A stretch of DNA of 24,334 bases, taken from the IMG/VR virus record IMGVR_UViG_3300023179_000501, positions 1-24,334 of that record; one strand, given 5' to 3'. Position numbers and translations under genes: made by a program. This document shows, piece by piece, positions 16,253 through 17,156 of the stretch (its first letter is position 1; each line of letters begins with the position of its first letter). The notes beneath the pieces are model-generated. The model was not told the origin of the DNA and did not search any database. It saw only the letters and a list, made by a program, of their open reading frames with translations. The DNA is from a virus.

Positions 16253-16438
16253 TTATGTTTTTTTACTTTCTTCAACATATTTATTTATTAAGTATTTTCT
16301 CACGTAGGTAGGCATTTTTATAAATTCAGAATACTGTGTTCTGAAAATTCTTGAAAAATAATAAAACTCGTCTAATATAGTGGACTTATACTGATAAGAA
16401 AGGCCGAAAAAACTCCACCCCAAAAGTAATGTCGACCA
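16253..16438 (-). CDS. Tail assembly chaperone C-terminal extension, reached by +1 frameshift
   Basis: This frame is open from just after a TAA (16439-16441) to the TAA at 16253, overlaps the end of the gp26-type gene by 50 bases and has no plausible start of its own: its only ATG (16315) would leave 20 residues. After the proposed slip the extension is 50 residues: an acidic/aromatic helix (T-I-L-D-E-F-Y-Y-F-S-R-I-F), Y-S-E-F-I-K-M-P, and basic V-R-K-Y-L-I-N-K-Y-V-E-E. That shape (aromatic helix, then M-P-x-x-x-R and a short charged tail) resembles the second product of tail assembly chaperones. It would yield a 300-residue fusion (250 plus 50). Such fusions bind the tape measure and recruit tube subunits. 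The family reading is inference; the open frame and coding-like composition are seen directly. Confidence 0.7.
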   Translation of the reverse strand, partial: WSTLLLGWSFFGLSYQYKSTILDEFYYFSRIFRTQYSEFIKMPTYVRKYLINKYVEESKKT

Positions 16439-17156
16439 TTACTTTTTCTCCTGACGGGGCGCTTACTTGTTTTGATAGGTCTAATCTTGGTTCATTGTCT
16501 ATTAAAAATCTTCTTATGTATTTTGAATCCCCTATTGGCATTGATTGTACAAATGTTGATATTTTTGATTTATCTCTATCACTATCCAATTCTACAATAT
16601 GAAATATTAATTTTGTAGTTATTGATGGTGGAGTTCTATCTGAAGGATAAGATTTAATTATTTTATCCATTTCAATTTTATCAGAAATGGTTAATAATTT
16701 TAATTTTACTTTTTTCTTTGTAATTGGTAATACGGTTTCAAAAAAACCTTCTTCATTCGGTTGTACTTGTGTTTTTTTAATATTCAATTCGTCTAAAACT
16801 AACTCTGCAACAAACTTTTGTTCGGTTTTGGGATCAATTGCACTTATTTTGTATTCAGGTCCAAAAGATGTGTTTCTTAAAAATAAAAGAATTGCTTCAA
16901 TATCACCATCTATAAGTTCCTCTGGTCTCAGATCTCTTTCGTATAATTTATTTCTTAACAATGGTAATACTATACTTTCTTGTATACTTACATTGTAATC
17001 AATATCTGCTATTAAATTTTCATCGGTTGCTGTTAGGTAACCAACTTTTACTGATTTTTTTTTGGATTTATAAAATATACCTCCTGATGGTAATTGGACC
17101 ACATCATGTGGTAAGTTGAATTCTGCTTGTCCCGCTGCGTATATATCTTGTTCCAT
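16386..17156 (-). CDS. 26: gp26-type baseplate/tail assembly chaperone (256 aa, unshifted product)
   Basis: It resembles the T4 gp26 baseplate hub assembly family: an N-terminal V-Q-L-P-S-G-G-I-F-Y segment, then V-G-Y-L-T-A-T-D-E-N-L-I, L-P-L-L-R-N-K-L, a central beta part, S-M-P-I-G-D-S-K-Y-I-R-R-F-L, and a terminal I-T-F-G-V-E-F-F-R-P. T4 gp26 has 208 residues. In T4 it helps assemble the hub and is not a major virion part. Here it sits between tube and tape measure, where lambda-like G/GT and P2-like E/E' chaperones lie. No promoter box lies directly upstream; a hairpin separates it from the tube gene, so it probably depends on read-through and is made at a low level. Nine of its ten Arg codons are AGA; the exception is CGG at residue 251, directly after the proposed shift site. 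Confidence 0.8.
   Translation of the reverse strand: MEQDIYAAGQAEFNLPHDVVQLPSGGIFYKSKKKSVKVGYLTATDENLIADIDYNVSIQESIVLPLLRNKLYERDLRPEELIDGDIEAILLFLRNTSFGPEYKISAIDPKTEQKFVAELVLDELNIKKTQVQPNEEGFFETVLPITKKKVKLKLLTISDKIEMDKIIKSYPSDRTPPSITTKLIFHIVELDSDRDKSKISTFVQSMPIGDSKYIRRFLIDNEPRLDLSKQVSAPSGEKVMVDITFGVEFFRPFLSV
16404..16412 (-). promoter_or_regulatory. Candidate +1 ribosomal frameshift site (UUU UUU CGG)
   Basis: Frame-0 codons are GAG TTT TTT CGG CCT. A +1 slip of the Phe tRNA from TTT to TTC is fully paired and leads into GGC CTT TCT. The next frame-0 codon, CGG, is the only non-AGA arginine codon in the gene and could cause a pause. A run of four G (TTT GGG GTG) 10-13 bases upstream is an alternative slip site inside the same overlap. 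Confidence 0.55.

Follow-up and report, generated by a model that had tools for sequence, protein, structure and literature searches.

A tail gene in a 24,334-nt stretch of viral DNA (IMG/VR record IMGVR_UViG_3300023179_000501; the whole stretch is called the window) appears to encode a two-product tail assembly chaperone of the T4 gp26/gp51 family, with the long product made by programmed +1 ribosomal frameshifting. We put the probability of this reading at about 0.9; there is no direct evidence for the fusion protein. The reading rests on the family membership of the gene, a conserved overlap between two reading frames, selection on the +1 frame, constraint on the shift site, a covarying hairpin and homology between the extension and the C terminus of gp51, all of which we observed.

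Results

Two overlapping frames between the tail tube and the tape-measure position

The features of the locus are collected in Table 1. The 256-aa product of the zero frame scored 34.6 bits against PF12322, above the curated cut-off of 24.5. A second frame overlaps its end by 53 nt, stop codon included. Read in +1 past the second UUU of UUU-UUU-CGG (16412-16404), it gives the junction EFFGLSY and exactly 50 further codons (16405-16256, minus strand), for a predicted long form of 300 aa. The predicted tryptic pair for the window phage is VMVDITFGVEFFR for the short form versus VMVDITFGVEFFGLSYQYK for the long form. Upstream, the tail tube gene was identified by its PHROG match; the downstream 601-aa ORF, for which neither Pfam nor PHROG returned a family match, is placed as the tape measure by position only, and the gene after the chaperone in Flavobacterium phage immuto carries a tape measure annotation. 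An earlier note on this DNA, made from the letters alone, had proposed a gp26-type frame ending at 16386, an overlapping frame open from 16438 to 16253, a coherent 50-residue extension after the slip and a place between tail tube and tape measure, and all of this was borne out. Its two-product reading of a gp26-family gene is supported as well; the -1 arrangement elsewhere in the family and the upstream hairpin had escaped it.

Table 1. Coordinates of the chaperone locus and its neighbours in the window
Feature	Position	Strand	Evidence
Zero frame: short chaperone, 256 aa, gp26 family	16386..17156	-	PF12322 E 2e-8; phrog_150 E 2.5e-14; relatives 59-81% identical
+1 open frame	16253..16438	-	open in 181/181 testable relatives; pN/pS 0.42; AlphaFold2 model with three helices
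Shift site UUU-UUU-CGG	16404..16412	-	second Phe codon TTT in 80/80; site table; rare CGG
5' RNA hairpin	16416..16461	-	covariation; RNAalifold outer stem; synonymous constraint; fold energy
AGGAG in bulge between stems	16448..16452	-	GGA codon kept in 78/80
Tail tube protein (gp19-like), upstream neighbour	17242..17730	-	phrog_4542 tail tube E 1.9e-22
601-aa ORF, downstream neighbour, tape-measure position	14416..16221	-	position only

Lambda G/GT and the corresponding genes of other long-tailed phages likewise lie before the tape measure, and their overlapping frames yield one short and one long product (PMC5009743). The location of the gene and its conserved overlapping extension frame support a two-product chaperone of this type; the product ratio and the binding of tape measure and tube are inferred. 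Lambda uses a -1 shift, whereas the window extension lies in the +1 frame, so the locus is not of the lambda-type -1 arrangement, and no sequence match of the window chaperone to lambda G/GT was found.

The tail sheath protein (18741-22076; 1111 aa) carries a long insert with threonine runs, and its sheath match is confined to the last third. Between sheath and tube, a 276-aa ORF (17839-18669) has a phosphatase-like start, AFDWDDNL, and no Pfam match. The baseplate region contains two very large ORFs, a 1688-aa ORF (9300-14366) with a weak OmpA-like stretch (PF00691, E 2e-4) and a 2513-aa ORF (1444-8985) without a Pfam match.

Conservation of the extension frame

We gathered 184 IMG/VR relatives in three scans (a few contigs were fetched twice) and tabulated the slip region in 138 distinct regions, GenBank phages included. 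The gp26 stop is contained in 181 of the 184. Past this stop, the +1 frame runs on for at least 100 nt in 171 relatives, is still open at the contig end in the other 10 and is closed in none; the -1 frame closes at a median distance of 17 nt. These counts rule out chance. Seven GenBank phages, whose hosts differ widely, share the +1 arrangement: Flavobacterium phage immuto, Microcystis phage Mel-JY01, Rhodothermus phage RM378, Bacillus phage SP-15, Listeria phage LIS04, Streptococcus phage GXN1 and the 484-kb LR756508 genome. Beyond the overlap, pN/pS was 0.42 in the +1 frame versus 1.08 and 1.18 in the other two frames; in the gp26 body it was 0.51 versus 1.04 and 1.32. Judged from these ratios, the extension is under purifying selection. 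The earlier note had named conservation of both frames and their overlap under such selection as a check, and relatives lacking the extension frame or having stops in it as a refutation; the check was passed and no such relative turned up among the 181.

In the annotations of isolates, the extension is partly listed as a separate small ORF or is absent. Pieces of it stand as hypothetical proteins in immuto (L028 6412-6522), RM378 (L029 5446-5622, minus strand), Mel-JY01 (L026 3740-3976) and SP-15 (L192 3264-3383). A search of genome contigs returned only one distant relative, without the extension, in a Prevotella MAG, and the host of the window phage could therefore not be identified. The gp26-like protein of that MAG (L232 2968-3681) stands alone, without a Phe-Phe end and without clear tail genes nearby.

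Constraint on the shift site

The tabulated sites are of the types TTT TTT CGN, TTT TTT TGG, TTT CTT TGG and TTT CTA TGG, with a few variants, and re-pairing in +1 is allowed at all of them except one or two odd ones. In the window clade, the second Phe codon is TTT in all 80 sequences. The codon after it is rare: among the 7458 codons of the window genes CGG occurs twice, once at the shift site, and in the gp26 frames of the clade CGG and CGC together make up 1 of 722 Arg codons upstream versus 67 of 78 at the site. Slow A-site codons are well-established drivers of +1 shifting. The P-site codon is most likely 16409-16407 and the skipped base C16406; across the family, the slipping codon remains ambiguous, as TTT CTA TGG fits the first codon only and TTC TTT CGG the second only.

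As at the RF2 (prfB) +1 site, the P-site codon can re-pair in +1 ahead of a slow A-site codon. The RF2 site combines a stop codon with a Shine-Dalgarno sequence, whereas the window site combines a rare sense codon with a hairpin. At Shine-Dalgarno spacing, GGAG stands 3 nt before the P-site codon in the window; in relatives, the Glu codon is GAA in 27 of 71 and the Val codon varies.

A covarying hairpin upstream of the site

The hairpin has an outer stem (16461-16455 with 16422-16416) and an inner stem (16445-16437 with 16431-16423), in the layout GCCCC-GUCAGGAG-(inner hairpin)-GGGGU. Counted from the core pair at 16417, its 3' end lies 4 nt from the UUU run. For this designed structure, 78 distinct sequences gave 127 cells in which both sides had changed and pairing was kept, against 61.6 in shuffles and at most 53 with the partner slid. 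The five core pairs of the outer stem form in 99-100% of sequences. RNAalifold independently recovered the outer stem in the window clade and did not return the inner one. CCCC/GGGG is replaced by CACC/GGTG in two relatives (L084 and L087) and by GTCC/GGAC in a third (L090); these compensatory changes show that the pairing, and not the G run itself, is conserved. Synonymous constraint within the gene peaks in the 5' arm and bulge (ratio 1.94; mean 1.12, s.d. 0.18), and mean fold energy over the 52 nt before the site is -15.9 kcal/mol versus -5.1 in the rest of the gene.

In the immuto clade the hairpin is another one, of 5 bp (AUYCC/GGRRU), and stops equally far from the site. Support for it is weaker: 90% are paired, there are 10 double-changed cells versus 1.1, and RNAalifold gave no consensus in this clade. 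No hairpin was seen by eye in SP-15, LIS04 or GXN1. The AGGAG in the bulge of the window hairpin is strongly kept at synonymous sites, although genes start here without Shine-Dalgarno use. An intrinsic terminator, suggested by a hairpin followed by a T run, was set aside: the run lies 4 nt off the stem and is interrupted in sister phages, and the tape-measure gene follows downstream.

A close known counterpart is the yeast CUU-CGG-C +1 reporter (Cho et al. 2013, PMC3639245), in which a hairpin also stands directly upstream of the slippery codon, followed by CGG-C. That system is an engineered reporter on 80S ribosomes, whereas the window site is a natural one on 70S ribosomes.

The extension domain and gp51

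T4 gp26 and gp51 both match PF12322 (E 8.8e-64 and 3.9e-52) and are paralogues of each other (hhalign 99.5%). Along the 282 columns of phrog_150, gp51 covers 13-280 and gp26 only 14-235; gp51 is thus a gp26-like protein plus a C-terminal domain. A profile of +1 extensions matched a profile of -1 extensions and gp51 C termini at 94.6% (E 7e-8), against 12% for the reversed profile and at most 35% in 40 column shuffles, and the two share the motif Y-S-x(3)-I-x-x-M-P-x(3)-R. By profile comparison, then, the +1 extension is homologous to the gp51 C terminus, the window's own extension being covered only as part of the family profile. The match of the fused window protein to phrog_150 reaches no further than column 238, and the window sequence alone therefore does not reveal the homology. 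Whole fused proteins aligned directly to gp51 with hhalign showed no significant match. The link was made via PF12322 and phrog_150 and via the extension-only profiles.

In AlphaFold2 models, the window fusion (pLDDT 83.6) and a gp51 (87.5) have the same order of elements, and in both the extension is predicted as a long helix, a short helix and a long helix. Among solved structures, the fusion model best matched the HK97 tail assembly chaperone 2ob9 (Z 6.2 over 77 residues, rmsd 3.3; next row 2.5). As Z below 8 is not proof, this model-based match supports but does not prove a chaperone identity. Foldseek against the PDB gave no significant match, and the solved-structure search with the gp51 model returned no chaperone chain.

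T4 gp26 and gp51 thus resemble the window gene in belonging to the PF12322/phrog_150 family and, for gp51, in carrying the C-terminal domain of the extension; T4 has two separate, divergent genes, whereas the window phage has one gene and a +1 frame. The suggestion in the earlier note that gp26/gp51 are the T4 counterpart of G/GT holds insofar as the two are paralogues and gp51 is a gp26-like protein with the extension domain, and is limited by the match being confined to the last ~50 residues of gp51.

Relatives with a -1 arrangement

A phrog_150 search of whole phage records found the gp51-type domain as a separate match in another frame in S-PM2, HTVC008M and phiM12. By inspection, the domain is in the -1 frame in these three and in KVP40, phiW-14, Atu_ph07, PA5oct and Phosso, with the overlap at TTT TTC or TTT TTT codons ending the gp26 frame. 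Like the window, the cyanophage, pelagiphage, KVP40, phiM12 and jumbo-phage members have a short frame ending in Phe-Phe and a T-like domain in an overlapping frame; in them this frame is -1, whereas in the window it is +1. The U run begins at the third codon position in -1 members and at the first in +1 members, and from this difference in phase we infer that a small indel would switch the required shift.

We built a tree of the gp26 domain (42 rows), which has some long branches and an uncertain deep order. S-PM2, HTVC008M, phiM12, phiW-14 and KVP40, all -1, fall on one side, which is fully supported. On the other are all the +1 phages, together with three -1 jumbo phages and one phage whose ORF is separate; with +1 phages and -1 jumbo phages on one side, shift direction must have changed at least once. 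The gp26 and gp51 clades of T4 relatives are sisters on the first side, next to KVP40. The T4 pair therefore likely arose by duplication from a -1 ancestor, as far as sequences can tell. One chaperone family thus has three solutions, namely a -1 shift, a +1 shift and two genes, although the shifts themselves are inferred from sequence. KVP40, a T4 relative, keeps the -1 overlap, while T4 and others have two genes, which dates the step from frameshift to duplication. A separate ORF seems to carry the T-like domain in the 595-kb phage LR756511, its start overlapping the stop before it as TAATG.

Alternative explanations

An internal start could make the +1 frame a separate small gene, beginning at the TTG at 16423-16421 or elsewhere. 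A TTG is present in the +1 frame in 74 of 80 window-clade relatives, and LR756511 offers a case of the domain as its own ORF. The earlier note had found no usable start, a statement that the TTG qualifies for the window itself; in 16 of 134 relatives (5 of 80 and 11 of 54), the +1 frame has no ATG, GTG or TTG there at all. Moreover, the TTG is a by-product of conserved zero-frame TTT GGG codons, the invariant TTT and rare CGG at the overlap would be left unexplained, and in T4 gp51 the same domains are truly fused. We regard an internal start as very unlikely. An indel, in a pseudogene or an assembly, can also yield two overlapping frames, but the relatives refute it: the same overlap, under purifying selection, recurs in isolate genomes and in about 180 contigs drawn from many metagenomes, which excludes assembly error and leaves this explanation a negligible chance.

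Other routes to the same fusion concern the step itself. A -2 slip would enter a downstream frame identical to +1, but an upstream hairpin and a slow A-site codon promote forward movement (PMC3639245, PMC5009743), and the CTT TGG sites look like the RF2 site CTT TGA; its chances are slim, a little below those of an internal start. RNA polymerase slippage on the U6 run, rather than a shift by the ribosome, is suggested by the six T's in most window-clade sites. It seems slightly less probable again, since sister phages have TTT CTT TGG without a run of six, a one-base loss and not a gain would be required, and the rare A-site codon and the hairpin distance fit a ribosome.

Discussion

Programmed +1 frameshifting at this locus would proceed as follows; the occurrence and efficiency of the shift, the role of the hairpin and the binding partners are inferred. 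Most ribosomes would read UUU UUU CGG in frame and make the 256-aa short form. A fraction would pause with tRNA-Phe on UUU while CGG (UGG in sister phages) is decoded slowly, and the just-translated hairpin may refold behind the ribosome and favour forward movement. Re-pairing of tRNA-Phe on UUC, one base ahead, would then add the 50-residue helical T-like domain and give the 300-aa product. By analogy with lambda G/GT, the short form would coat the tape measure and the rarer long form would recruit the tube protein.

In yeast, +1 shifting was stimulated by a 6-bp hairpin upstream of CUU-CGG-C; whether a cis hairpin can substitute for Shine-Dalgarno pairing on 70S ribosomes was a question raised by the authors (PMC3639245). 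Bacteroidia ribosomes do not recognise Shine-Dalgarno sequences (PMC9976891). By eye, 10 of the 11 printed leaders of window genes lack such a sequence; the eleventh has AGAGGA, upstream of the gene that ends at 22360 and within the final coding part of the preceding gene. Of the cultured relatives, immuto infects Flavobacterium and RM378 Rhodothermus, and the recorded source of SP-15, LIS04 and GXN1 is Firmicutes. In hosts that ignore Shine-Dalgarno sequences, a stimulatory hairpin would be a sensible arrangement; the host of the window phage is unknown. On balance we lean, with clear reservations, towards a natural bacterial +1 class whose stimulator is a covarying hairpin behind the ribosome in place of Shine-Dalgarno pairing, as Bacteroidota-type hosts would need. 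The same reading has shift direction switching between -1 and +1 at one pair of codons within a single orthologous family, and T4 abandoning frameshifting through duplication from a -1 ancestor.

Parts of this picture are not new. The T4-like chaperone genes were named by Vladimirov, Gautam and Davidson (Virology 2022, as cited in PMC10885494 and PMC12846349), and the gp26/gp51 chaperone pair in T4-like phages was already published. T4 genes 26 and 51 are separate, as the earlier note had it; they are divergent neighbours. According to the citing papers, some T4-like phages have a short gene and a separate fused long gene (PMC10885494), and poly-T -1 signals are known in T4-like chaperone genes (PMC12846349). 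A 2016 review described G-T frameshifting as widely conserved in long-tailed phages 'except T4' and mentioned a suspected +1 chaperone shift in the haloarchaeal myovirus HSTV-2 (PMC5009743). In the searchable literature, most subscription journals being outside its scope, we found neither a +1 member of this lineage nor the hairpin described. As far as we can tell, the +1 form in this lineage is new, together with the covarying hairpin 4 nt before the slip run and the adjacent CGG/CGC that is almost unused elsewhere in the gene.

In deposited genomes (immuto, RM378, SP-15, Mel-JY01 and LIS04), the long chaperone has gone unannotated or figures only as a stray small ORF. The locus and its relatives offer scores of natural +1 sites preceded by a hairpin, which makes the question of a hairpin in place of Shine-Dalgarno pairing on 70S ribosomes (PMC3639245) directly testable. 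For the T4-type chaperone family, the finding means that one problem has been solved in three ways and that the order of events can be read from a tree.
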